From the NCBI RefSeq assembly GCF_040954645.1, contig NC_092809.1:136575914-136639913 (forward strand): DNA of 64,000 nucleotides, given 5' to 3'. Position numbers and translations under genes: made by a program. This document shows, piece by piece, positions 626 to 62,620 of this stretch. The notes beneath the pieces were generated by a model. It was given only the letters and a program-made list of their open reading frames with translations, searched no databases and was not told where the DNA came from. Numbering within the stretch: the first letter of the stretch is position 1; the number at the start of each line of letters is the position of its first letter. The DNA comes from Diabrotica undecimpunctata (Eukaryota > Arthropoda > Insecta > Coleoptera > Chrysomelidae).

Positions 626-1640
626 ATGCCAGGCACAGGTTGTAGTGTGGCATGTGGCAGGTTGTAGTCCGCCGATTCTGATCCACAAATAGCATTTTTC
701 ACGTTTCCCAAAAATACAAAATTAGAAAAAATATGGGTTATGCGTTATTGCAGAAAAGATAAAATAAATATAAAAACTGCTAGAGTATGTAGTAATCATT
801 TCATTTAAAAACAAACAGAATGTGGACCTGCAGCAAGAAGAGATAAAAGAGTAGCAATGAAAACACAAACAGCTCTCATTAAAGACTTATTAGAGGTGCA
901 TTCACATAAAAGGGAAAAAACTAATCTTGTAACCATTGATTTGTCTTATGTATCCTTTACAAGTAAAGAATCGGAGGTAGATATTTTAAAACGAAAATAC
1001 GAGGACTTGCTTGAAGAAAACAAAAAACGAAAAGAGAAATTAGAAGAAAATGAACAAGATTTGTGTACTACCAGAACGAGGATTGTAGAATTAATTAAAA
1101 AGGCATTGATAGTGAGCAAAAGATTTTGAAACACTTTGGTACACATGTTTAGTAAAAACGAAATTGAAATTATTGTGAAAAAAAAGCTTTCACAATAAGA
1201 TATTTTAGTAAATAGATATCTAAGAAATACTCTTAAATATCCATTACCTGGAATATGAATTTTACAAAAATGGGCTGCACACATTAATCTTAGATTTGGT
1301 CTCCTACAAGATGTACTTCAGGTAATGTATATTGCTGGAAAATCAAAAACTGAACTACAAAGAGTACTTTTGTCTTGTCATATGATAAAATAAAAGTCTG
1401 AGCCCAGTATGAATAACCAAAAAGAAGATGAAGTGGTTGGCCCTCATAAGTACATGCAAGTAGCGATAAATGGAAGCAACCAGTCTACATTGGCTTTGAT
1501 ACAAGTATGACTGACAATATTTTGTCTACCATAATTACTGAGTTGCACAATGTAAAATTTAATGTAGTTGCATGGATGCCTGATTGCGGGTGAGGCAATC
1601 AAGGACACAGTTTACATATCGATAGCCTAATGCTGACAGA
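626..1640 (+). pseudogene. P-element (THAP9-like) transposase, N-terminal part, broken
   Basis: The frame opening at 626 (MPGTGCSVACGR) encodes a THAP-type zinc finger: an early Cys pair, then FFTFPKNTKLEKIWV, then a Cys-x2-His ending in ARVCSNHF. It is broken by stops at 665-667 and about 806. The same frame continues as a Lys/Glu-rich coiled coil (857-1129), as in P-element transposases between THAP and catalytic domain. In shifting frames 1150-1640 reads KYPLPG, LRFGLLQDVLQVMY, IGFDTSMTDNILSTII and VVAWMPDCG, matching the P-element RNase-H segment (FD..MT..IL, then the second catalytic Asp before CG). The reading breaks off at about 1620 and resumes at 4052 after an insertion. Multiple stops and frameshifts make it non-functional. 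Family assignment rests on the THAP plus catalytic motif order. Confidence 0.8.
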
Positions 1641-1650
1641 TCGTAACCCA
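1620..1650 (-). repeat. 31-nt inverted copy of P-element coding sequence
   Basis: The reverse complement of 1620-1650 matches 4052-4082 at 28 of 31 positions. The 4052 copy is in frame in the P-like transposase (LGYDLSALGYR), so the copy here is a misplaced inverted piece exactly where the P-like reading is interrupted. The two copies flank the inserted DDD-family element in opposite orientation. Confidence 0.75.
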
Positions 1651-4051
1651 CAAAAAATTGAAAATTCATATTTTTGTGTCAAAGGCAACCAACCGTGCAT
1701 CCCTATATGCTGTTAAATTCTCGTAACCTAAATAAAATAGTAAGGTGGCCATTCCCGCGATTTCTAAGTCCTAACCCGCTCGCGTTGTTTGTTTACTTCC
1801 AACTCATCTTATCCCACAGTGTAGCTTGAATGGCAAAGCGTGTTGGTAGTAATTCGTTTGACGTTTTGGGATAAAATAAGACAAAACAGTCAAGAATGAT
1901 AGGAAGGGAATATACTGGTTATAGAAGGCTACAAAATATTGTGAAACATGATATTCTACGCCCTGAACGTAAAATGAAGCCAGCCTGTGTCTCGAAGTTT
2001 TGCGCTACCGCGCCGACTCGCTTTTGCCAAACAATATCAGAAAACTTAAGAAAAGAAATATTTTTAAAATTTTGGGAAATGTCCTGGGAACAAAAAAGGA
2101 TGTTCTTCGCTCATATGGTTACATACAAGGAGAAAAAAAGATGGTATGTAGATGGACCTTCCAGGCGAAGTGGTACCTACGAATACTTTCTGACAGTAAA
2201 AGGCGATAAATTACAAGTCTGCAAATTGATGTTTCTTAACACACTAGGAGTAGGAGAAAAGATGGTACAGAACTGGGTAAGTGCGGCACGAAAAGATGGA
2301 TTTCTAGAAAGTTGTGACATGATGCAAACAAGGATCAAAGAAACAAGAGAGTCTACACCAAAAGCAAAACAGGACATTTTGCGAGTACAGAATTTACGAG
2401 AGTTTCTTAATAGGCTGCCTAAAATAGAGAGCCACTATTGCCGCAAGTCTACTGGAAAGTTATACCTGGAACATAATTTCAAATCAAAAACTGAAGTATA
2501 TAATGTTTATAAAGAACAATGTAAAGACAGGGAGGTACCATTATCAAATTAAAAATTCTCTACAGAATTTGACGAAATGAATTTAGCCTTGTTTAAACCA
2601 CGCAAGGACCAATGTGATATATGTTTATCTTACAAGATGAAACAGGTTACAGATGAACAATACGCATCCCACATTAGAGCAAAAGACCTAGCACGCGTCG
2701 AAAAAGAATCCGATAAAACCAGAGCCATCCATAAAGAAATTTACTGTTTTGTCGTTGATGTGCAGGCAGTCAAATTGTGTCCAGTGTTACAGGCTAGTTC
2801 TTTGTACTATAAAACAAAGCTACAAGTACATAACTTTACAGTATATAACTTGGAAAACCATCGCAGCATATATTTCGTTTGGAATGAGACTGAGGCAGAC
2901 TTTGATTCATCTGTATTCACTACGTGTTTAATAAAACATCTAGAACAATATTTGACCTTTGAAAAGAAAAATGTTATAATATTCTCGGACGGCTGTGGTT
3001 ATCAGAATAGAAATGTCGTCCTTGCGAATGGTTTATCGGTTTTAGCTTCCACGTATGAAGTCGAGATTGAGCAAAAATTTCTAGAAAGAGGCCACACTCA
3101 GATGGAGTGTGACTATACCCACAGTCTAATTGAACGAAGACTAAAAAATCGGCAAATATTCCTACCCTCAGACTATATTTCGGTAATATCAGAAGCCAGG
3201 AAGAATCCTGCACCTTTGGAAGTATCCTATCTCACCCACACTTTTTTTCTAAACTACAATGACTTTAAAAACTTTCGCTACAGCTCAATTCGTCCAGGTA
3301 AATCAAAAGGAGATTTGAAGGTAACAGATCTTAGAGGCTTAAAATACCTACCAAATGGGGATATATTATACAAAATGGCCCATGATCAAAAATATGAACT
3401 CCTTCCTCAGAGAAAGAACACCGTCAATCACGATTTGGTTTACGATCAACTTTATTCGAATAGATTAAAAATAACCATAAAGAAATGGAAGGAAATTCAA
3501 GATCTAAAGTCTGTAATACCTGTAGATGTACAGTACTTCTATGATACGCTGCCTCACGAAGACTTAATCACCAAAGACAATAACAAAAATCAAAAAAAGA
3601 AAGCCAAGATTTAAATTTATTATTTAGTTATTTTATTTTAATTATTCCTAAAAATGTTAACTGTAACGTTGTTTAAATGGTATTCGCTTAGTTTGCTACA
3701 TTTTATTTAAAGTAAACACACATTTGTATCTGTTTTTATTTGAAATTAATAAAAATAAAAAATAAGGTTTATGATTTAAAATGACGTAAACCACACTTTT
3801 ATGAGAACACCTTGAGTTATAATAACTTACTACATTTTCTAAGAGTTCGATATATTCGTAAGCCGTCATGACCTTGGTTACAATATGTCGTATCCCTTAG
3901 TACCCTGATCAAAATTAAACAAATTTATATTTTTACAATAAACTCACTTAGTAGCCATTACATAATTATTTATTTAAGAAAACATTACACAAGCAATCTT
4001 TTATAATTATGCTATACAGTTTTTTGTGCCTCTTGTAAAATTTTCTAAAAT
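1651..4051 (+). mobile_element. Insertion carrying a DDD-family transposase-like gene, within the P-like element
   Basis: The P-element reading stops near 1620 and resumes at 4052, so the roughly 2.4 kb between is extra. It contains a GC-richer leader (about 1740-1890), one long plus-strand gene (1896-3614) and an AT-rich tail (3615-4050). By eye I found no convincing terminal inverted repeats or target duplication, so the exact borders are unknown. The 31-nt inverted repeat at its edges points to a rearrangement, not a clean transposition footprint. Confidence 0.55.
1896..3614 (+). pseudogene. DDD-type transposase-like protein (DUF7869-like insect family), copy 1; one in-frame stop
   Basis: One reading frame of 572 codons runs from ATG 1896 to TAA 3614, broken only by TAA at 2550-2552; codon 228 (ATG 2577) lies in the same frame. 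The N-terminal part holds the motif TYEYFLTVKGDKLQVC (about residue 91 on) and a helical, possibly DNA-binding segment. A CxxC knuckle (DQCDICLSYK, C240/C243) follows. Then come three Asp motifs: CFVVDVQAVKLC (D288), IIFSDGCGYQNRN (D365) and RGHTQMECDY (D406). Spacing D288-76-D365-40-D406 is identical to the copy at 58517-60221. The Lys-rich C-terminus ends NKNQKKKAKI. I know this family from anonymous insect proteins resembling DUF7869; RNase-H-like catalysis is inference. Upstream Met residues at 1896 or about 1974 could start it. An internal retrotransposon or host ORF is less likely given the motifs. Confidence 0.75.
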
Positions 4052-4600
4052 TGGGTTACGACCTATCAGCATTAGGGTATCGATATCCAGTCACAGAAGC
4101 AAATTTCTACATGTTTGCTGATGCTCCCCATCTCCTAAAATTAACAAGAAACTGGTTAATCGACACAGGATTTGAACTTAAAGATGGAAGTGTATTGAAA
4201 AAAGATTTGTTAAAAGAACTAATTGAAGTTGCAACAACAGAAATAAGTTCCATATATAAGCTGACTTCAGATCATTTAGAGGTACAAAAAATACGGAGAC
4301 AAAACGTTGCACTTGCTACAGAATTACTATCCCATACAACTGCAACATCCTTAAAACATTATTTTCAAGATGCAGACAGAGATAAAAAATCGCAGCACAA
4401 AAACTTGGAGAGTTTATAGAGCTTATTAATACAAGATTTATCATTTGGTGGACTCATAAATGTATCATCGGAATGGGTAGACCAAGTAATGACGATGGAA
4501 AAATATTTCCAAAATTTTCATGGTGAAAACCTAAATCAGAGTAGGAAAATTATACATCGAACTGCAGAGTATGTTTCCTTTCCAGTCATTGTTCAAATAC
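4052..4600 (+). pseudogene. P-element (THAP9-like) transposase, middle part (GTP-binding insertion domain)
   Basis: The frame from 4051 reads LGYDLSALGYR, then FADAPHLLKLTRNWLID, YKLTSDHLEVQ and ALATELLSHTTATSLKHYF. In P-element transposases the segment [SF]-D-x-[CP]-HLLKL-x-RN and the following LT..H..... block sit directly after the second catalytic Asp region, so this is the continuation of the fragment ending at about 1640. After a frameshift near 4385, AAQKLGEFIELINTRF continues the match. The rest (DDE glutamate and C-terminus) is not recognisable. The break between the halves is explained by the intervening element. Confidence 0.75.
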
Positions 4601-7875: not shown

Positions 7876-8974
7876 TTTCTACAGATCCCGCCTAGTCTAA
7901 AATGAATAATCTGATAAAGAAATATAGATAAGAGGCAATCGGACATAAACCTTAATAAAAAAACAGTAATATATTTATTAAAATTTCAATAAACAGTTAG
8001 TTATAATATAAAATTTTAACAAATAGAAATTTGAATAAAAGTCAAAAATAAAAACACAAATATAATAAAAATTTTATTGTTGACTATTAAATTAAAGATT
8101 GTTTTTATGTGATTTTACAATAATTTCTTTTGCCTAAAACTACAAAATAATATGAAAACAAATCGAAAATAAAAAAATTAAAATTAAATTAGTTTATTTT
8201 CTAACATTAGTAAATTTTGCTAGTTTTCTATCTGCTTTTCTTTGACTATTTTTTTAAACTTATAGTACGATTCAAATCTCGTAGCCGAATATATGTTCGA
8301 GTTCTGCTAAGACATTCAATTACCTCAAATGGTATAATGTTATTTTGTAATTGAAAAAGGGTGCTTTTAGCTAATTTTGTGAAAATATTTTTATCTTTGC
8401 TCAAACTGCTTCCATGCATTGTATGGAATTCTGAGTCCAGCACATTTCCCCATTTCTTTGTCTCTATCTTTGCGTATTTCTTATTTAATTTTAGAGTCTG
8501 ATTTAGCATAGTTGTTTATGATACGTAAACGACATTAAAATCCTGCCCTGAATGTGATCGATAGATCGTAGAATACATATCTAAGACGTATATATGGGTT
8601 ATTATTAGGTTTCCTTTTCATTGATATGCGAACTTATAATTAGTTATTGAATATTTAGTATTTGGTACAAAAATAGATAATATCAGCATACTCCAATCTA
8701 TTCATTATTCATGACAATGGAATGCAGTTATTAAAATTACATAAACTGTCGCTATTTTAACAATAGAGAATTTATGTATTGTCAACCTGTAAAAAATCAA
8801 GTAGACAGTTTCAGATGATAAAGTAGATATTTTATTAAATAAACCTTACAAAGATTAAGAATAGGTAAGTATTGTATATGCAAAAACAAAATTATACCTA
8901 AATCTAAACCATTAAGGAATAGTGAATATGCATGCATTAAAATCATTTGACCTTTCATAATAAGAAATCCAAAT
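7876..8974. other. AT-rich region with one possible transposase C-terminal fragment
   Basis: The minus-strand frame 8246-8509 encodes 87 residues including EFHTMHGSSLSKD and VIECLSRTRTYIRLRDLNR. The latter reminds me of the conserved RTxxRxRxLN-type ending of some THAP/P-like and related insect transposon proteins, but the match is from memory and weak. Nothing else in this stretch is recognisable. Confidence 0.25.
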
Positions 8975-9019
8975 AATATCATTCATATTGCTGTTGATGG
9001 AAGGGATATTGTGCAGAGT

Positions 9020-9032
9020 ACATCGTATAAGT
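9020..9032 (+). repeat. 13-bp target-site duplication, left copy (ACATCGTATAAGT)
   Basis: Identical to 10138-10150. The two copies bracket the LINE-A insertion, whose 3' end is a GATGATGATG run. Confidence 0.9.
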
Positions 9033-10137
9033 GTCGTATAAGTGTCAACGACAGTGTCAAGAGAACAGTGCTATACCAATCAATGCATGAGTTTGGTATA
9101 CCAGAGAAACTTATCCGACTAACGAGAATGACAATGTCCAACTTAGAAGCCACTGTTAGAATACAGGGAGAGAATTCTAGATTCTTTGAGATAAAGGATG
9201 GACTCAGACAAGGGGATGCTCGGGCTTGCCTCCTATTTAATATTGCCTTAGAAAAGGCAGTCCGAGATACACGAATTAAGGATGGCGGTACTATTTACAA
9301 TAGATCGATACAAGTCTTAGCATATGCTGATGACATTGACATAATAGGGCGTAGCAAGCGAGATGTTGAGCAATATCTCCTAGAATTGGAAACAGCGGCG
9401 AGACAGGTCGGTCTAGTCATCAACGAAGACAAAACCAAGTACATGTTAGTTACAAAGGATCCGATAGCAAATGAGGAACGAGAAACAGTCTTTGGAAGTC
9501 ATACCTTTGGACGTGTTGAAAACTTCACATACCTTGGGTCGCTATTGACTGCTACCAATAAAACAAGCGAAGAAATCAAAAGACGAATAAATCTTACAAA
9601 TAGGGCATACTATGGACTCCAAGAGCATTTCCACTCAAGAAACATTCAAAGAAGAACTAAAATTATTATATACAAAACATTGCTGAAGCCGGTCCTCACA
9701 TATGGAGCAGAAACATGGACTCTGACGCAGAAAGATGAAAGACTTTTGGATATATTTGAGCGTAAAATACTCCGCAAAATATTTGGACCTATAAACAACC
9801 AAGGGCAGTGGCGCAGAAGATATAATTTTGAATTGTGTCAGCTCTTTGATGAGCCAGATGTCATAACGTTCATTAAAACACAGCGACTTAGATGGGCTGG
9901 ACACATAATACGAATGCCAAAAAATACGATTGCTAAAAAACTAACCACAGGAACACCTGTAGGAAGAAGAAGCAAAGGCCGACCGCGAATTAGGTGGTTA
10001 GATGGAGTTGAAACCGACTTACGGATATTAAAAATCAGAAGATGGCAACATGTTGCCAGAAACCGAACAGAACGGCGACGAATCTTAGAGCAGGCCAAGA
10101 TCCACAGAGGATTGTCGAGCCAAAGATGATGATGATG
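9033..10137 (+). pseudogene. 5'-truncated RTE-like LINE (family A): RT palm to C-terminus, frame open
   Basis: The open frame (to TGA at 10127-10129) starts within palm motif A (DSVKRTVLYQSMHEFGIPEK). It continues with motif B (DGLRQGDARACLLFNIALEK), motif C (LAYADDIDIIG), the thumb (FTYLGSLLTATNKTSEEIK) and a C-terminal region typical of these LINEs (TYGAETWTLTQKDERLLDIF, LRWAGHIIRMP, GRPRIRWLDG). The 3' end is a GATGATGATG repeat and the insertion is flanked by a 13-bp duplication. The EN domain and upstream RT are missing by 5' truncation, as expected from aborted target-primed reverse transcription. The Met at 9011 is in the target, not the LINE. The uninterrupted 360-codon frame suggests a young copy. 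Confidence 0.88.
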
Positions 10138-18522: not shown

Positions 18523-21143
18523 CAGTGTTTCCCAAAGTGGGGGTCGCGACCCCCTGGGGTGTCGCCATGAGGTACTAGGGGGTCGCCGAACATTTCCAAA
18601 ATAAGACAAAAGCACCACTTTGTTAGATCATGTATTTTTATTTTAACAACGCCGTAAATAGAAATTAACAATTAATTATCAGACGAAATATAAAACTAAA
18701 TATTAAAGTCCTTAAAAATAAAAGAGTAAAACAAAGTCAAATATTATAATCTTAATGAGAGCTATGCGCCTGTTTCTGTGAAACTAATCTTTCAAATCTA
18801 GGCTGTGTATTTGAGACACACACAATTATTTCATTTTCAAGTAGGAGACGATTTATAACTCTTGTTTTAATGGCAGTCATAGACGAGAAACTTAACTCAC
18901 ACAAATATGATGTTACAAATGGAACCAAACATTTTACAGCTTCACTCGCCAACTGGGGGTATTCCTGCATCTTTTCGGTCCAAAATTGGTCCGAGTTCTG
19001 GGAAAAAAATTGGAGCTTCAACATTCCATCACTTGATATTTCAATAAGTTTTTCTTTCATGTTTATTGGTATTTCAACATGCTGAAAGGAAGCGGCTAAA
19101 AACGGATTTAGTATCCATCTGCAACTGTTGTAACTGTTTTGAATTTCTTTGGGGAAATAATCACAGAGCTGTTGTTTTAAATTGAGCAAAATAACATGCA
19201 TGTCAGCAAAAACTTGTTCAAAATTTGTAGCACTGTAATTTGATACATTTTCCATAATTTCCTGAAGGCACTGGAATGAATCGAGTTGTTTTTTGCCAAG
19301 TGAGGTCGACCATAAATCGATTTTTCTTAGAAACGCCTTAATTTTATCTGTGGCTGTAATTATATTAATGTCGCGACCTTGTAAATTACTGTTTAAAATA
19401 TTTAATTGCTCGAAAATATCAGCAAGGAAACCTAGTTTCAAAAGCCAAATAGGATCGGAAAATTGATTTTTATATGGGGACTTCTTATCTTTCAAATACA
19501 TTAAAAGCTCTGCTCTTAAGTGAAATACTCTTTTTAAGACGTTGCCCCTTGAAAGCCACCTTACTTCGGTGTGATAGAGAAGATTTTCAAATAAAGCACC
19601 CATGTCTTCGCAAATTTTTCTAAAAATACGGGTCTACAAAGCTTTTCCTTTAATGGAATTTACAACTTTAATGATGGTTTTCATAACACAGTGCATTTCA
19701 GGAGGTAAAGCTTTGGACGCAAGAGCTTCTCGATGTAAAAAACAATGTCTCCATTTGGCATTATTTCTTGTAATTTGACGACAAGAGCAGATTTATGTCC
19801 TGTCATAGCTTTAACGCCATCTGTGCATATAGCAATACATTTACCCCAGTCAATATCATATTTACTTGTACGGTTCACAAAAGTGTCGAGTAAACATTTT
19901 CCAGTGGTATTGGTCTCCAATGGGGAACAAAATAAAATATCTTCTTGAATGCCATTATTTGTATCATATCTTACAAACCTAATGAATTGGGCACAGTTAG
20001 ATATATCTGTGGATTGGTCCATTTGAAGAGAGAAGTCCGTGCATTTATTAAGATTTTCCACAACTTGCGCTTGAATATCTTCTGCCATATCATTAATTCT
20101 TCTTTGGATAGTATTATTTGACAGAGGTATTGTATTTAATTTTGCAGCCTCTCTTTCCCCACACATTATATGTACCATTTCAACAGCTGCTGGAAAAATC
20201 AGATTTTCAGCAATTGTGTGCGGATTACTAGTTTTGGCAACACGATAAGCAACTTTATAACTCGCTAATAATGCTTTTTCATTAGTAGTGGTTGCCAAGG
20301 GAAAACTGTCTTGCTGTTTGTGAAGGACGTTCAGCTTTCTTTCAAAGAATTCTACGGGCTTGTCTTTTTTATCTGGTTGTTTGCTATTTAAATGTCGAAG
20401 TAACTTTGATGGCTTCATGCTTTCTTTTGGCAAGACTTGTCCACAAATAACACATTGTGGTTTATTGGAAATAACGGTAAAACCATATTTAAGATATTCA
20501 TCAATGTAGAATCTGTTTTTCTATTTATTGCTGCTACTGCCACTTTCAGACGTAGATGGTTCTGCACTTCTTTTTAAAAACTTATCCATAATTTATAATT
20601 TATCGTAGACGTAAATACGTAAACGGGAATACGTAAGTCGTAAAATATTTACTCATTACTCAACACCGCGTTCGCCACCATAGGCTGTTTGGATTCGAAC
20701 TGAGGTTTCGTTGCGCATCGCCACTTATATAAAGCCAAAACGAGGTTACGAGAACGTTCCAGAGTGCCATCTAGTAGCGAGCGCTTTCGCGATTATCATG
20801 GAAGAGTTTTGCGATGTAGACACAGGCTAATATGTCGCGGCGTACAATGTGCAGTCGACTTCTTATTATTTATTTTTATTGTAAATGCTATTCTGGCAGA
20901 AGTACCTACTACTAATTACTAGTGGGACAGATCGCAATCATTAAAATAATTGTATTAAAATTAAATAATTGTTTTTGATTTAAACTTAAACAGTAAAGTA
21001 AAATTAAATTTGAGAAACCATCAGATAATTGTAAATTAGGCACGCTATTTCTGTCAAATAATATTGAATAAATGAGTGGGGGGGAAATTGGAGGGTCGCG
21101 AACAAATTTTTTAGCAAAAAGGGGATAAGTTTGGGAAACTCTG
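18523..21143 (-). mobile_element. Complete hAT element (ZBED5/SCAND3-like), 2,621 bp
   Basis: The left terminus CAGTGTTTCCCAAAGTGGGG and the right terminus (complement of 21130-21143) CAGAGTTTCCCAAA form short TIRs with one mismatch in 14. Both ends are flanked by GTTTAAAC, an 8-bp duplication as expected for hAT. Sub-terminal GGTCGCGACC-type sequence occurs at both ends. The interior encodes one minus-strand BED/hAT transposase (18752-20589). Complete ends plus a broken ORF mean a once-autonomous copy, now dead unless supplied in trans. Confidence 0.92.
18752..20589 (-). pseudogene. hAT transposase (ZBED5/SCAND3-like), broken by two stops and a frameshift
   Basis: ATG at 20587-20589 (MDKFLKRSAEPSTSESG). 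The BED zinc finger spans PQCVICGQVLPKESM to LLRHLNSKQPD, with a stop just before it (about 20522). The catalytic core has DFSLQMDQSTDISNCAQ (first Asp) and IAICTDGVKAMTGHKSAL (second Asp). After a frameshift near 19740 and a stop near 19635, the frame 19603-18752 holds LLYHTEVRWLSRGNVLKR (conserved in this subfamily) and a C-terminal dimerisation segment TSYLCELSFSSMTAIKTR that includes the catalytic Glu. The gene fills the element between its TIRs. Length (about 610 codons) is typical of the family. Confidence 0.9.
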
Positions 21144-53530: not shown

Positions 53531-54145
53531 AACTTTTACTTTGAATGTCAGGGTTTGGGTCTATATACCATACTATAATAGGAAGACATCAGACAAGCCA
53601 TGCCCGAAAGGCATCTGCAGGATGACGACTGGTGAGGTAGAAACCGGTGGAAACTACGATTCGAGAAACGACCATGATATAATCGAAGTTTTATTCATTT
53701 ATTTTGGTAAACTGGTTGCCCTTTTTCTGTAATGAGCATCCTCTTTTTATTCGTTATCCGTTCTGGATGTTGGCGATCAACATGACTTCTTATTTTACTG
53801 GTACTTATTCAGAATAGTCTGGTTGTATACGTGTTGAACCATTTCTCGGGTTTTGAAGCCAACAAATTCGTATTGAGCATAACGAACGATATTTCATTCT
53901 TAAAAAATTTGCTCTGTTTTCCATATTACTGTTAGAATTATATGGATTTGGTTAGTTGCGTAGGCATCCTCATATTTGTAGAGGTTAGTCATGAATTTAT
54001 TATTTTTAGATGCTTTGTTAAGATTTAGGTTAAGGTTTAGGTGTGTCAAATTCGGCATTATTATCAGCGTGCAGCGTCCCTTGAGGTATTCCATGTATTA
54101 TCATCACGGTGCTACAGCCTTTAAACTCCCTGAACTTCTCAATCT
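53531..54145. other. Spacer, nothing identified
   Basis: Short frames only; no motif. Confidence 0.3.
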
Positions 54146-55640
54146 CAAGCTACTGGTCCAGAGAATATCAATGTCGAAATACTAAAACTAATTGCAGATA
54201 ACGAAAGTAGAAGCCTAGCCTTAATAACAGCACTATTCAATAAGATATATGACACAGGTAAAATACCAACAGACTGGCTAAAATCAACATTCGTAGCATT
54301 ACCAAAAAAATCGAATTCTTCACAATGCGATGATTATCGAATATTAAGCCTGATGTCTCATGCCCTTAAAACTTTTCTCAGGATTATTCATACACGAATT
54401 TACAAGAAGTGCGAGTTCCAGATGAGTGACACTCAATTAGGATTTCGAAACGGATTGGGAACACGAGAGGTTCTTTTTGCTTTAAATGTGTTAACGCAAC
54501 GATGCAGAGAGATAAATGTAGATGTATATGCATGTTTTATTGACTATCGAAAAGCATTTGACTGCGTTAACCATCAAAAGATGATCGAAATTCTGAGAAC
54601 AACTGGAGTTGACGAACAAGACTTGCGAATTATCTCAGAACTATACTGGCACCAAACGGCAACAATTGAAATAGAGCACACAACATCCGAAGATATACAA
54701 ATCCGACGAGGAGTGAGACAGGGTTGCGTCTTATCACCGCTACTGTTTAATTTGTATTCGGAGTCTATATTCAGAGAAGCATTAGACGAGGTCCAAGGCG
54801 GAATTAAGATTAACGGAATCACCATAGACAACATCAGATATGCTGATGATACCGTCTTAATAGCAAGCAACGCACAAGAACTACAAAATATAATAAATGC
54901 GGTTGTTCACCACAGCGAAATGTTCGGTTTACATCTAAACGCTTCCAAAACTAAAACTTTGGTATTTTCAAAGACACCAATAAACGTACATATGTATGCA
55001 AGGGTCAAATAATAGAACAGGTAAATTCCATAAAATATTTGGGAGCAAATATCAATAGTCAGTGTAATCCAAAAAAGGAAATCCTATCAAGAATCGAACA
55101 AGCAAGGAAAGCATTAATGAACATGAAAACATTTTTTACAAGATCAGACCTTAGTCTGCAGCTTAGAATCCGAATGATCAGATGTTACGTTTTTTCTGTC
55201 TTACTGTATGGCTGTGAAAGTTGGACAATGAACTCTGAAATAGAAAAAAAAAGAATAGATCCCTTTGAGATGTATATATACAGACGAATGTTGAGAATTC
55301 CATGGGTACAAAGAGTTACTAATGTTGAGGTACTTCGTCGCCTGTGTAAACAAAAAGAATTACTAAGAATAATCAGAGAGGAAGAGAGGAAAATGCAATA
55401 CTTGGGTCATGTGTTGAGAGGTGAAAGATACGAATTACTTCAAGTTATACGGGTAGGAAAAGTACAGGGCAAAAGATCAGTAGGAAGACGCCAGAACTCG
55501 TGGCTGAAAGACCTGAGAAGATGGTTCGACCGCTCATCCGCAGAAATCTTTCGCGCAGCAGTTTCCAAAACTACAATTGCCATTTGGATAGCCAACCTTC
55601 GAAAGGAGACGGCGCCATGAGAAGAAGTATGAATATTTCC
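54146..55640 (+). pseudogene. LINE (family C) reverse transcriptase, best copy; one frameshift
   Basis: Open from 54155 to 55012: ATGPENINVEILKLI (RT entry), IYDTGKIPTDWLKS, CDDYRILSLMSHALKTFLRI, GFRNGLGTREVLFALNVLTQ, DVYACFIDYRKAFDCVNHQK (motif A), RRGVRQGCVLSPLLFNLYSE (motif B), IDNIRYADDTVLIASNAQEL (motif C, intact) and NASKTKTLVFSK. A one-base shift near 54995 moves to the frame ending at 55620: SIKYLGANINSQ, RCYVFSVLLYGCESWTMNSE, RRMLRIPWVQRVTNVEVLRR, YLGHVLRGERYELLQ, NSWLKDLRRWFDRS and IFRAAVSKT. The endonuclease is lost by 5' truncation. The layout is that of RTE-like LINEs; clade not proven. The GAGAAGAAG end fits the family. Confidence 0.88.
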
Positions 55641-56534: not shown

Positions 56535-57350
56535 ATGGCATCCACAATTCTTCGAGGCATAGTTTTTACCAAGTTCTGACAAAATTCTAATGTAAACGAA
56601 TCCCATATTTCTTGCAATTTTGCCTTCAATTCGTCGACGGACCGGACAGGATGTTTTCTCAAAGCCTTTTTCATTTCGCGCCACAAAGTCTCGGGGACAA
56701 GTTGGGACTGTTAGAAACCCTTTCCAGAAGGGGTATGCCATGGTCATCAATCCATTTTAAATTCTTTTTCAAAGTATGACAACCTGCGCCGTCCTGTTGG
56801 AAGAGAAAATCTTCCGCTGATGTTAAACGGTGTTCCATAATGGGTAAAAGAGATTCTTCTAAAATATTCAAATATTTGTCCATGTTTACAATAAATTCCA
56901 TCGATAAAATGTAACTTTCCCACACCTTTAGACGACATGCTGCCCCAGATCATGACATATGCAGTAAATTTGACTTTTCTCTTCAGACAGTCGGAATGGA
57001 AAGCTTCATTTTTCCTGTGAATAACGCGACTCCTACTGTCTCCAACACACACTTCAAATCTGGACTCATCACTCCATTGTATTGAATCCCATTGCGACTG
57101 AGTCAAATCTTTATGCTCTTTTGACCATCTTAGTCTATTTTTCTTTTGTTGTAATGGTAAAAGTGGCTTCTCCTTAGCCTAAAATAAAATTAATTTTATT
57201 GAAAGCAATTCGTACTCATTTTTTCAACTATAAAACTTACTTTGTAAGTACCAAATCCTAATGTGTGGGTGAGATGTTGATCTAGAAACGTGTCTTCCAA
57301 TAACGTCATTCCATAAATTTTCTCAATATTTGTAGCACTGTAGTAAGATA
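56535..57350 (-). pseudogene. Tc1-like transposase (DD34E), broken, with a candidate intron
   Basis: Right to left on the minus strand: NDVIGRHVSRSTS and LGFGTYK, a GTAAGT...TTTTAG interval (57241-57179, 63 nt), AKEKPLLPLQQKKNRLRWSK, SIQWSDESRFEVCVGDS (first Asp), KFTAYVMIWGSMSSKGVGKL, FLFQQDGAGCHTLKKNLKW (second Asp), SNSPNLSP then, after a 2-nt loss, ETLWREMKKALRKHP (Glu), and PRRIVDAIKNK. Thirty-four residues separate the second Asp from the Glu when the lost Ile codon is allowed for, as in Tc1. Frameshifts occur near 56700 and 56920. The intron reading joins TYK to AKEKPLL smoothly. Confidence 0.8.
57179..57241 (-). other. Candidate 63-nt intron in the Tc1-like gene
   Basis: Minus-strand GTAAGTTTTATAG at the donor and AATTTTATTTTAG at the acceptor, AT-rich in between. 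Removal joins LGFGTYK to AKEKPLLP in one frame, matching the usual LGx-x-Y-A-KKPLLS stretch of Tc1 proteins. Confidence 0.5.
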
Positions 57351-58184
57351 AGCAAAAACACCGTTTTAACTAATAATGTATTTGACATTAATTTAAAAAA
57401 AATATACAATTATTAGTGCAAAAATAGAAAAAAATTACAAATTTTATTGTTTCTAAATTTTAGTGATAAATATTTACTGATAAAATAATAACAATAACAC
57501 TCAAAATGTTTCGTAATGAAAAAAAATATTACCTTAATCAATGACGTCGGTATCTTCATTTGGATTGTAAATGATGACTGGGTTAACCCTTTTCTTTAGA
57601 ATGTATCACAAATGTAACATTATCATTTTAGTGCCTAGGTGAGTTCTAGGCGACTTATGACGCATTCTGTTAGTCACTTCTTGTACTAATATTATAAAAC
57701 TACCGCTAGGTGGCAATAGCTGGCTTATATCTTTATTATTACCGATTTCTGATAACTAATTTTAATTTTATAATTTTAATCATTTTTAAGGGAATTATTA
57801 ACTCATAAAGGGATATATCTCTGCTTATATTTTAACGGTATTTTATTTGAAGACACACCTTCCAACCATTTTCTTTAAGTTTCTGATATCTCAAATAACA
57901 CGAAAAAAATAACTTTTTTTAAAGGCCCACACAATGCACACTTCTCTTCGCTTGCTTTAATTCCCCACTCTTCCGCTCCAAAAGCGAGAACCTGGTCCAC
58001 AGAGCAGTTTTTTTACATTTTTCACCATACTTAAACGAAAATCGAAGATATAGAAGTTGGAAGCAGTTCTGCGCTCCTTCCATTTTTGCTATCTACTAAT
58101 ACCCACAAGTATTTAAAGTAATCGATCATCTGCTATTTATTTTCACCTATTTTTATTTCTGTTTACATCGTCTCTTGTAATTGA
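57351..58184. other. AT-rich spacer, possible further Tc1 exon remnants
   Basis: A VNPVIIYNPNEDTDVID frame near 57595-57540 (minus) ends at AAG-GTAATA, another donor-like site, but I cannot tie it to the transposase. Otherwise nothing identified. Confidence 0.2.
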
Positions 58185-58186
58185 GG

Positions 58187-58430
58187 CCATTTGCGGAAAA
58201 AGGGCCCTTATGAAAAATGGCGCTTTTGAGAAAAAAGCAATTGAAAATTTAACAAGTATTTTGAAAACAAAAATTAAAACTTTGAAGCTTATTGAAAGCT
58301 AAAATAAAAGTATTGTATTTAAACTAAAGTTACAATAAGATGTTTCAAAGATATAGACATATTTTTATGTAAATATAATTTTTTTTACATTAGCTTGTCA
58401 TGGGCCCTTTTTCCACAGATCATTTGCGAA
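58187..58430. repeat. Short inverted repeat around GGAAAAAGGGCCC
   Basis: CATTTGCGGAAAAAGGGCCC at 58191-58210 pairs with GGGCCCTTTTTCCACAGATC near 58402-58421. It lies just downstream of the DDD-family gene copy 2 and may be a separate small fold-back or the end region of that element. Confidence 0.5.
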
Positions 58431-58516
58431 AGTATGAAATAAGTTTAAAAAAATTTTTATTTGGAAAATGACGTAAAAAATTAACATTAAAACAAGTTAT
58501 TATTATACAAAGAAAG

Positions 58517-60221
58517 TTATACAGAAACTTCTTCTAGTATCCAGCATATCCATTGTTCATCTTCTTGGGACAAAAACGAAAATAGATCTCTCACGTCTTT
58601 TTCCTTCGCCGGCTTTATTCCAACCACTGGGACAGTTTGAAGAGCAATGCTTGTGTTTATGTTTCTTCCTTTCCAAATTGTGAATGGTATGTAATTTTCC
58701 ATATATGTTTGAGAACAAGCCAATGTTCCGTCTTTTTTGTATTTCATTTGTACATACTGTTGAATGCTGAAAACAAGTCCCTTTGTTTTTGGCTTATTTA
58801 GAAAGACTCATTCCAAACTTTCAGTCCAAGTTTTGATTAGCGTTCTGTCCATGACAAAATTAAAAGGAGATGGATTTTTCCGACAATGCACTATTGTTTC
58901 CAAATATGGCTTTGCCGTCCCTATGTATTCCTTCTTTTTTAAAGATGACTTTACCATCCCAAAATTGCGATCGCACTGGTTAAAGGAATGGCCACGAGCC
59001 GGAAATATATGTCGAATATTGACGTTAAACTTGTGTGCTAGTCACATTCCAAATTTTACCATTGAAATGTTCTTATTTTGTCCTCCGCACGCATCCAACA
59101 AAAATACGATTTCAGTGACATCGCCATTAATTTTTTTGCAGAAGCAGGCATAGACGAATGAAATAACAGAATCGGCGCCTTTTTTTCCTTGTCTTTCCAT
59201 AAATGTATACATAAAAGACGACCCATCATTGTGAATATGTATATTAAAGAGATAACACCAAAGTAGACGTATATAAAACTGCATTGTTACATTGAGTTTC
59301 GTAACTGGTAGATTTTGTCCATAGTCAAATTCTATCAGATTCCTTCTTATTGCTATATGTCGCTTTACTTTCATATTGTGAAGGCGATAGGAAATTGCAC
59401 AGGCATCGTTAGGATTAATAGATAGTTTTTGTTTACATTTTGTGCAGAAATCATATACGTCTGTTTTGGGATTGTTGAAACTGTATGAACGCAGTGACTT
59501 AAAATACTGAAAGTATGTCTTATATTTCATCTTTAGATTTGTGCATGTCTTTTCTTTATAGTATTGTACAAAAAACTCATACAGCTTTTTAATATTTACT
59601 TCGGGATTCTCAAAATATTTTAGTTCGGATTTGTGTTGGGAATAATGACTTTTCTTAAACGGAATAGTTTCCAAATGCTCTTTAAACAAGTCATGAATGT
59701 TGGGAGCCAATTTGTGGGGTCTGTTGGCATGTGTCCCTCGCTTTTCTGTAAATGAATCCCTCTCAATTACCTTCTTTTGTACTACACGAATGCTCTTCAC
59801 AGATACTTGAAAAAGTTTTTGGATCATGGTCTGACATGTTTTTATTCTGTCGCCCTTTTGAGACACGAAATATTCCCATGTATACGCTCGTAAAACTTTT
59901 GGATTATTCTTGAGTCGTTTACGGTCTACATTAAGTTTTTTCATACACTGAGCCAACAAAGAGTCCTGTTGAGACTTTGCTTGTAAATAAAAGTGTTGAA
60001 ATAAGAAATAAATGTTTTTGATCATCGACACTTAAACGGGTAAAACATTTGTCTAGGCAGCATTTTATGATTAACTGAAATGATTTAGCTGCAACATCGC
60101 GACCTGTCGAGGTGACGTATATTTTACCTGATTGCTTTTTAACTTTTCTTTTTTCTGGCGTCACATGAATCTTCTTATATCTTGTCAGTTTTTGTCTAAC
60201 TACCTCTTCATCAGAATCCAT
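58517..60221 (-). pseudogene. DDD-type transposase-like protein (DUF7869-like insect family), copy 2
   Basis: Starts at 60221 (MDSDEEVVRQKLTRYKKIHV). A one-base shift near 60010 links CFTRLSVDDQKHLF to FQHFYLQAKSQQDS, after which one frame runs to 58517 with stops at 59042-59044 and 58808-58810. Motifs: YTWEYFVSQKGDRIKTCQTM, CxxC in DVYDFCTKCKQKL, IEFDYGQNLP (Asp at 59324-59326), VFLLDACGGQNKNIS (Asp at 59093-59095) and ARGHSFNQCDRNFGMVK (Asp at 58970-58972). Spacing D-76-D-40-D equals copy 1 exactly. The C-terminal MKYKKDGTLACSQTYMENYI aligns with GLKYLPNGDILYKMAHDQKY of copy 1. Total span 1,705 bp versus 1,719 bp. Catalytic role is inferred from spacing and fold expectations. Confidence 0.78.
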
Positions 60222-60319
60222 TTTTAAAGCATAATAAACACACTTACGTTAACGACAAGCAAACGAACAACGGACGCGAACACAACTTTGTTAAAATGGT
60301 AGTTTTTATCGAGTGACAC

Positions 60320-60332
60320 AGGTTTGAGACAT
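60320..60332. repeat. 13-bp target-site duplication, left (AGGTTTGAGACAT)
   Basis: Identical to 60587-60599; brackets the palindromic insertion. Confidence 0.88.
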
Positions 60333-60586
60333 ATTGTTCTGAAGCTATTTTCTTGTGGCATTTTAAATTAATTACTATTTAACTGGGAATAAGCCACAAT
60401 TAAAGGTTAAAATACGTTTATTGACGTTTCAATTTCCACTTCGGAAATCGTTCTCAAAATACAAACATTAGTGAGATATACAAACTAATGTTTGTATTTT
60501 GAGAACGATTTCCGAAGTGGAAATTGAAACGTCAATAAACGTATTTTAACCTTTAATTGTGGCTTATTCCCAGTTAAATAGTAATT
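60333..60586. mobile_element. Palindromic Penelope-LTR-type insertion, copy 2
   Basis: A leader (ATTGTTCTG then AAGCTATTTTCTTGTGGCAT, as at 30682) is followed by two almost perfect inverted arms meeting around 60470-60490 (AAACATTAGTGAGATATACA). Arms carry AATTACTATTTAACTGGGAA, GACGTTTCAATTTCCACTTC and the CGATTTCC-GAAGT hairpin. Exact 13-bp duplication on both sides. Confidence 0.88.
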
Positions 60587-60639
60587 AGGTTTGAGACATT
60601 GTTGCCAAACTTGGCCGAAATGAACTTTACATCATGGCG

Positions 60640-60979
60640 GATCGATTTAAACGCGGAAGGAAAAATGTATTATTAATACGTATCTCGTTTATATTTATGG
60701 TCCGTCAAAATGTCTCCGTTTTCAGTTCTAATATTTTCGTTATATCGCTGTTTTTTTCCTGGAACTATAATATTGCCAACACGGGCGTTAAAATCACCCA
60801 TAATGATTATATATTCATCATTTGGGGTCTCGTTTATTACAGTCTGAAGGTGTTTGTAGAAGTTTTCCCTTGTGGTGGTATCTATGTTGTTGTCTGGTGC
60901 ATAGGTATATTGCTATCACATTCAGAGTTTTGACATCCAGTTTAATTTTTACACTCACTATCCTTTCAGAGGTATATTT
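60640..60979 (-). pseudogene. Older RTE-like LINE endonuclease, distal half
   Basis: The minus strand reads ECKYTSERIVSVKIKLDVKT, LNVIAIY, then after a frameshift YAPDNNIDTTTRENFYKHLQ and DEYIIIMGDFNARVGN. The YAPDxx...GDFNARVG block is the AP-endonuclease D-N motif of RTE/BovB-type elements. The proximal half of the same EN lies at 62197-62520, separated by a younger LINE. Confidence 0.75.
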
Positions 60980-60989: not shown

Positions 60990-62186
60990 CATCATCATCA
61001 TTCAATCTTCGCTTATCCACTGCTGGACATAGATCTCCCTCATAATTTTCCATCTATTTCGATCTTGTGCCTCTTGCATCCAATTCCTATGACAACGTTT
61101 TAGATCGTCAGTCCAACGTGTTGGTGGACGACCTCTACTTCGGTAGGCATCATCTCTTGGTCTCCATTCCAGTATCCGCTTTGTCCATCTATTGTCTGTC
61201 ATTCGAGCCACGTGACCTGCCCAGTTCCATTTTAGTGTTGCTACTCTCTCTACTGCATCAGCTACTCCTGTTCTTTGTCGTAGCTGGCGATTTGGGATCT
61301 TGTCTCGTAGTGAAACGCCCAACATAGCACGCTCCATCGCCCTTTGACACACACGGATCTTTTGAACTGTTCTCCTTGTCATGGTCAACGTTTCGGCACC
61401 GTAAGTTAACACTGGCAAAACACACTGATTAAACGTTTTTCTTTTAAGGCATATTGGTATATCAGACGATTTGAAAATATGGTTCAGCTTGCCGAAGGCT
61501 GCCCAAGTCAGTCTTATACGACGGAGAAGCTCAACGGTTTGGTTATCTTTTCCTATGCGAATCTCATGACCTAGGTATTTATAGGCCATTACCTGGTCTA
61601 TGGATCTTGTTCCTACGCATATATCTTCGCTGACTACAAGATTTGTCATCATCTGGGTTTTAGATATATTTATTTTCAATCCCCCTTCTAGCGAGGAAAG
61701 GTAGAGCTGATTTAAAAGTTCTTTGGCCTCATCTATCCTATCAGCTATTAGTACAATATCATCTGCAAACCTTAGATGGCTAAGCTTTTCTCCGTTTATG
61801 TTTATGCCCTTGTCGGTCAGTTTTGCCCTTTTACATATATATTCCAAAAGCGTAGTGAACAGTTTCGGCGATATGGTGTCCCCCTGGCGTACTCCACGTT
61901 GTATCGGGAATTTCTGGGTTTGACGATCACCCACTCTAACACTGGCTGTTGCGTTTTGGTATATATGTTTAATTATATTTATATACCGATAGTCAATTCG
62001 GCATTCTGTCAAGGCTTCCAACATTTTTTGTTGATTTACGGTGTCGAATGCCTTTTCATAGTCGACAAATATTAAAGCTAGTGGTTTATTATATTCAGTG
62101 CATTTTTCTATAAGATTTTTTATTACCAGTAGGTGATCGTTTGTTCCATAGCCTTTTCTAAAACCCGCCTGTTCTATGGGCTGATA
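60990..62186 (-). pseudogene. 5'-truncated RTE-like LINE (family B), frame open for 340 codons
   Basis: Starts (minus) at YQPIEQAGFRKGYGTNDHLL, then LALIFVDYEKAFDTVNQQKM (motif A), IQRGVRQGDTISPKLFTTLL (motif B), LSHLRFADDIVLIADRIDEA (motif C, FADD), KINISKTQMM, YKYLGHEIRIGKDNQTVELL, RLTWAAFGKLNHIFKSSDIP, CVLPVLTYGAETLTMTRR, MERAMLGVSLRDKIPN, LKWNWAGHVARMTDNRW and GRPPTRWTDDLKR, stop at 61002. The 3' end is GATGATGATGAC. Inserted into an older LINE endonuclease with a 10-bp duplication. The frame is uninterrupted across palm and C-terminus, so this is a young copy lacking only its 5' EN. Confidence 0.9.
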
Positions 62187-62196
62187 ACATTCTTGT
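62187..62196. repeat. 10-bp target-site duplication, right (ACATTCTTGT)
   Basis: Exact match to 60980-60989. Confidence 0.85.
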
Positions 62197-62620
62197 ACTT
62201 GGTGTAAACATTTTTTGTGTACTAACAGGGCGACTCCTTCTTTTGCTCTGGTTTCTTTCGCAACACCACTTTAAATCATCAGATAGTCATCTAGCATAAT
62301 TTGACCCTTTCCTTTTTTCTTCGTCTTTTGTAGTGCACATATGTCTATATTTTTTTCTACAAGCTCTTTTGTAATTTCCTGCTCTCTTGTCTTTAGAGAC
62401 TTTACGTTCCAAATACCGATGCAAAGTATATTTCTCGTTTTCCGTAAATTCGTTGTCCTCTTTCTCGCGTTAGGCTTCGTAATGAAATCATTCCTGTTCT
62501 GAGGCATAAATAATCCTGTTTCTATGAGCTGTATGGTTTTAAAGTCTACCAGTAGTGTGCTAACCTGGCTGTAGACTCCCTCCTCCTTTATCCGGACAGT
62601 TCTGTCGAGCTACTCGATCC
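62197..62620 (-). pseudogene. Older RTE-like LINE endonuclease, proximal half and leader
   Basis: The minus strand reads TRNILCIGIWNVKSLKTREQ, KELVEKNIDICALQKTKKKG, KGQIMLDDYLMI then a stop, SGVAKETRAKEGVALLVHKK and CLHQVQEC, which joins ECKYTSERIV at 60979 when the younger LINE is removed. GTWNVxSL..., DIxALQET and the YSG..GVxxLV block are the N-terminal EN motifs of RTE/BovB-type LINEs. 62530-62620 looks like 5' UTR. Confidence 0.8.

Follow-up and report, generated by a model that had tools for sequence, protein, structure and literature searches.

A very probable DDD transposon copy, defective and internally deleted, that carries a DUF7869 frame in Diabrotica undecimpunctata

The locus and the ends of the element

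The stretch of 64,000 nucleotides of the Diabrotica undecimpunctata genome analysed here, which is called the window in the following, contains a transposase-like frame at positions 1896-3614 that had been pointed out in an earlier note made from the sequence. This frame lies inside a transposon copy with both ends, which is very likely a DDD (three-aspartate) DNA transposon of the cut-and-paste type that has become defective and lost internal sequence. Its terminal inverted repeats are present inside the window and had gone unremarked in the earlier note. The element consists of the following parts.

1616..1619, no strand: left target site duplication, ATAT
1620..4082, plus strand: complete transposon copy, repeat to repeat, 2,463 bp
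1620..1650, plus strand: left terminal inverted repeat, 31 bp, starts CGATAGCCTAATGCTG
1861..1878, plus strand: internal 5' deletion junction, about 317 bp gone, common to 8 other copies
1896..3614, plus strand: transposase frame, 572 codons, one stop at 2550-2552, N-terminally truncated
4052..4082, minus strand: right terminal inverted repeat, 31 bp
4083..4086, no strand: right target site duplication, ATAT

In the window, positions 1616-1650 pair with 4052-4086 as a 35-nt inverted repeat with 91% complementarity. For comparison, other copies were collected from the D. undecimpunctata genome, where 41 matches corresponded to 40 places (L002-L041); scoring covered 40 of 218 candidates, and the genome contains more copies than these. 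When up to 5 edits were tolerated, each end of 38 of these 40 copies matched the terminal repeat. Duplications of 2 to 10 bp were then scored at ten offsets, with shuffled pairs serving as the control. An exact 4-bp duplication was identified just outside CGATAG in 34 of the 38 copies, compared to 13.9 in shuffled pairs, and the sole other reading well above its control, one of 2 bp (35 versus 23.3), is nested in the 4-bp one. The four copies devoid of an exact 4-bp duplication (L015, L021, L022 and L035) have the outer part of the left repeat altered or gone. ATAT accounts for 21 of the 34 duplications, and the 13 others are TTAT (4), AAAT (2), GTAT (2) and, as single cases, ATAG, ATTT, TTGT, ACAA and ACAT. 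L010 and L014 have common flanks and are probably one insertion assembled twice, which leaves 33 independent duplicated sites. The 4-bp duplication across the copies implies that the window element extends from 1620 to 4082, with repeats of 31 bp and ATAT on either side. The earlier note had proposed an alignment of the flanks of several insertions as a check for terminal repeats and target duplications, and both were found, the repeats in the window itself and the duplications across the copies. Copy length is 2.30-2.86 kb in 36 of the 38 copies and 3.48 and 3.67 kb in the remaining two, the 3.67-kb copy having a doubtful left end.

When the window copy is considered alone, it can be taken for a P- or hAT-like element whose target duplication is 8 bp long, since TATCGATA adjoins the repeat on both sides and the copy lies inside a P-like gene. 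However, the best 8-bp reading was obtained in 19 of 38 copies, compared to 16.4 in shuffled pairs, whereas the 4-bp reading stands at 34 versus 13.9, and copies with TTAT, AAAT, GTAT, ATTT, ACAA or TTGT on both sides refute the longer duplication. A P- or hAT-like element was rejected on these counts and retains virtually no probability. TATCGATA is a palindrome because the element begins with CGAT and prefers ATAT targets; the end of the element and its preferred target form a trap here, mimicking an 8-bp duplication.

Copy number, age and deleted forms

The core of the terminal repeat gave 230 matches with at most 1 mismatch (117 forward and 113 reverse) in the 1.74-Gb assembly, which indicates of the order of a hundred elements, while the reversed core as a control gave 0 matches in the same assembly. 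Pairwise identity among the 38 copies is 97.0% on average, with a range of 94.7-98.7 (703 pairs). From the column majority, the copies diverge by a median of 1.6%, and among the minor alleles 885 are singletons and 234 are shared, a pattern as expected after a burst followed by decay. At the insect mutation rate, about 3e-9 per site and generation, the family would have an age of some millions of generations.

Domestication of a transposase as a host gene would be in keeping with the long open frames of related proteins, and a single-copy host gene had been named in the earlier note as a case that would refute the transposase reading. Against this, the 40 copies lie in different places, 34 of 38 are located between repeats with duplicated targets, and no open frame of 550 codons is present in 34 of 38, so that domestication is given next to no chance.

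The 572-codon frame with a lone in-frame stop (TAA at 2550-2552) was confirmed, but its earlier description as nearly intact does not hold, since the window copy carries the stop and has lost about 317 bp of 5' sequence. The deletion was mapped with two anchors upstream of the frame, which could be located in 28 of the 38 copies. The distance between the anchors is 15 bp in the window copy, 327-403 bp in 13 copies, 189-224 bp in five and 1,221 bp in one. The deleted stretch codes for roughly 90 residues of an acidic extension, which is continuous with the frame; a long N-terminal extension is also present in four (757-896 residues) of the six related proteins inspected. The junction of the window type was identified in 9 of 38 copies at different sites (L002, L004, L011, L013, L017, L020, L024, L026 and L031), with one substitution in L017 and extra bases alongside in L024. 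Deletion junctions common to copies at different sites imply that internally deleted forms moved after they had arisen. The window copy is an amplified deletion derivative of a DNA transposon, and the deleted forms were presumably mobilised by a transposase provided in trans.

Two further deletion derivatives were recognised by eye, with a second junction common to L033, L035, L037 and L038 and a third to L019 and L021, in both cases at different sites.

The transposase frame and its predicted fold

The features of the frame are given below.

2613..3215, plus strand: residues 240-440, spanning the CxxC knuckle and the RNase-H-like catalytic core of the predicted model
2757..2759, plus strand: D288, triad residue 1, in 121 of 121 aligned sequences
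2814..3206, plus strand: Pfam DUF7869 (PF25273), E 2.9e-7, 30.7 bits against a gathering score of 26
2988..2990, plus strand: D365, triad residue 2, in 120 of 121 aligned sequences
3111..3113, plus strand: D406, triad residue 3, in 121 of 121 aligned sequences

The CxxC knuckle noticed earlier corresponds to C240/C243, and the three Asp motifs were found as described, with D288, D365 (in SDGCGYQNRN) and D406 (in GHTQMECD) separated by 76 and 40 residues. Across the 38 genomic copies, the codon for D288 is kept in 38, and those for D365 and D406 are kept in 36 each. Structure prediction, also proposed in the earlier note, gave a model in which the frame adopts the fold of an RNase-H-like DDD transposase. 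The reading as a DDD transposase is thereby strengthened by the model, by the near-invariant triad and by a transposon with ends, targets and relatives.

Residues 1-175 (window 1896-2420) form an N-terminal domain that was predicted confidently and contains four conserved Cys residues. A comparison of this domain to the PDB gave no convincing match, and it may represent a new DNA-binding fold.

DUF7869 and a second transposon family

The likeness to DUF7869 that had been suspected was borne out by a Pfam match above the gathering score. The match covers residues 307-437 in the second half of the frame, with D288 falling outside, and the Pfam model itself assigns no function. Five of six relatives scanned matched DUF7869 at E <=0.1, four of them above the gathering score. 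Searches of protein clusters returned 501, 72 and 387 hits, which partly overlap, and the named species are mainly insects and a few molluscs. In a literature search by name, no published link of DUF7869 to a defined transposon anatomy was found. With the predicted model and the alignments, DUF7869 (PF25273) very probably represents the catalytic domain of a transposase. Proteins publicly listed as "DUF7869 domain-containing protein" would gain a testable function with ends, target and catalytic residues, and gene annotators could set them aside as transposases. The family is also a candidate system for studying how AT-rich targets of 4 bp are measured by a DDD enzyme.

A diverged relative is present at the other end of the window.

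58179..60653, minus strand: member of a second DUF7869 transposon family, with the right terminal repeat ending at 58183, AATT next to it at 58179-58182, and the left end lost

The coding part of this copy, 58517-60221 on the minus strand, contains a frameshift near its start and stops, and is 24% identical to the window frame in a pairwise alignment. The same 76/40 spacing of the triad, claimed for it before, was verified. In a profile-profile comparison, the two families (121 versus 40 sequences) aligned along 555 columns with a probability of 100 and an E value of 1.2e-62, and their triads fell in the same columns; this end-to-end homology shows that the equal spacing is due to homology and not to chance. 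The second family is more diverged (86-93% identity among matches of at least 1,000 bases, window copy excluded), and its ends are GAGGCCATCCCCGG. Within the 5' part of the copy in the window, a perfect 104-nt inverted repeat with an 11-nt spacer, a foldback element, was observed at 60369-60587.

The insertion site and other mobile remnants

The transposon at 1620-4082 sits within a decayed P-element-like THAP gene, which it divides into two halves.

668..1590, plus strand: left half of the P-element-like gene, THAP domain at 668-805, E 1.1e-7
4087..4419, plus strand: right half of the P-element-like gene, TNP-like_GBD (PF21788, GTP-binding insertion domain), E 2.7e-9, Pfam query 4039-4419

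The start of an RNase H domain of this gene was matched weakly at 1450-1590 (E 0.0036), where 18.0 bits fall short of the cut-off at 24.6. A query for the empty site, in which both flanks were fused with a single ATAT, gave 46 matches, 29 of which span at least 100 bases on either side of the join. All six paralogues fetched are uninterrupted, with a single ATAT in four (L058-L061) and ACAT in two (L062 and L063). A few bases upstream of the join, the gene in the window has also lost sequence through a separate deletion that none of the six carries. Ten long relatives of the P-like gene, 76-79% identical and mostly with equal or near-equal scores, are located on one contig (C11), and a local amplification is possible.

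Five further frames in the window, at 18752-20520 (minus), 56747-57178 (minus), 8951-10129 (plus), 54134-55620 (plus) and 61002-62270 (minus), are by their look what we take to be decayed mobile elements, including a transposase of hAT type, a piece resembling mariner and several reverse transcriptases of long interspersed nuclear elements (LINEs).

Proposed mechanism and the points that weigh against it

The element would encode a single transposase, with an acidic N-terminal extension that is absent in the window copy, followed by a Cys- and helix-rich domain of residues 1-175 that likely binds the 31-bp terminal repeats. A CxxC/H knuckle would precede the RNase-H-like core, in which D288, D365 and D406 would hold the metal ions, and the core would cut and join DNA at the CGATA... 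ends. Insertion would take place into AT-rich 4-bp targets, mostly ATAT, which would become duplicated. Deletion derivatives, the window lineage included, would spread as well, presumably by transposase acting in trans. The data show the anatomy of the element, its duplicated target, paralogues with an empty site, multiple insertions, a predicted fold and a conserved triad, and from these we infer activity, metal catalysis, excision, the domain that binds the repeats and mobilisation in trans.

For the step of excision, a replicative insertion by copying has to be considered, since the 4-bp duplication speaks for staggered joining and not for excision. However, in assays of eukaryotic DDD/E transposons that have short terminal repeats, the elements are known to excise, and nothing in the present data points to copying, which makes a replicative mode improbable compared to cut-and-paste.

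Several observations weigh against the reading as a DDD cut-and-paste transposon of the proposed type. The window copy is dead, with a stop and the 5' deletion, and a frame of at least 550 codons is open from stop to stop in only 4 of 38 copies (L013, L014, L022 and L010). A triad codon is lost in 2 of 38 copies at D365 and in 2 of 38 at D406. With Foldseek alone, no match with E <0.001 was obtained, the best being Mos1 at 4.0e-3. Ten of the 34 duplications (TTAT 4, GTAT 2, ATAG, TTGT, ACAA and ACAT) are outside AWWT, the Sola2 target form described below. In the second family, 21 of the 23 ends that could be read are flanked by AATT, and a duplication is therefore indistinguishable from the repeat there; AATT may belong to the repeat or reflect a strict target.

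Comparison to known transposon superfamilies

A defective copy of a DDD transposon is a known kind of thing, and the comparison concerns the superfamily to which it belongs. Kolobok elements duplicate TTAA at their targets. For piggyBac the same TTAA is given in the published description, and piggyBac and Kolobok were both rejected, TTAA being present in 0 of 34 duplications. For Tc1/mariner, the target duplication is TA according to PMC10741241, and this superfamily was rejected for the window family with its 4-bp duplications such as ATTT, ACAA and TTGT. Mos1 mariner and Metnase (SETMAR) likewise duplicate TA, in contrast to the AT-rich 4 bp of the window family, and neither was among the matches of the PDB sequence searches. 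P elements and THAP9-like proteins differ from the window element by other domains and by a duplication described as about 8 bp in PMC3706591. They are also represented by the gene hit by the insertion, and by Pfam name they too have an RNase-H-like domain.

The Sola superfamily was reportedly described originally by Bao et al. in 2009. According to PMC10741241, Sola elements have a DDD transposase, a 4-bp duplication, a length of mostly 2-9 kb and repeats of 11-1124 bp. In the window family, a DDD triad in a predicted RNase-H-like core, a 4-bp duplication in 34 of 38 copies, lengths and 31-bp repeats within these ranges were identified. For Sola2 of two amoebae, PMC3627910 reports AT-rich 4-bp duplications of the form AWWT and names ATAT, AAAT and ATTT; here the target is AT-rich as well, with AWWT in 24 of 34 duplications (ATAT 21, AAAT 2 and ATTT 1).

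A DDD transposon of an undescribed superfamily, whose likeness to Sola2 would be convergent, competes with the filing under Sola2 only, and is rather unlikely, given that all testable published Sola features were found. Still more tentatively, a superfamily of animal DNA transposons that has not been described might have DUF7869 as its catalytic half. It would comprise three or more sequence groups and hundreds of uncharacterised arthropod and mollusc proteins, read the ends with a novel N-terminal zinc-and-helix fold, and strongly prefer AT-rich 4-bp targets that are palindromic. Among the superfamilies compared, the published features of Sola fit the window family best, and if the element is a DDD transposon, its assignment to Sola, group Sola2, by likeness to the published description, is reasonably probable.
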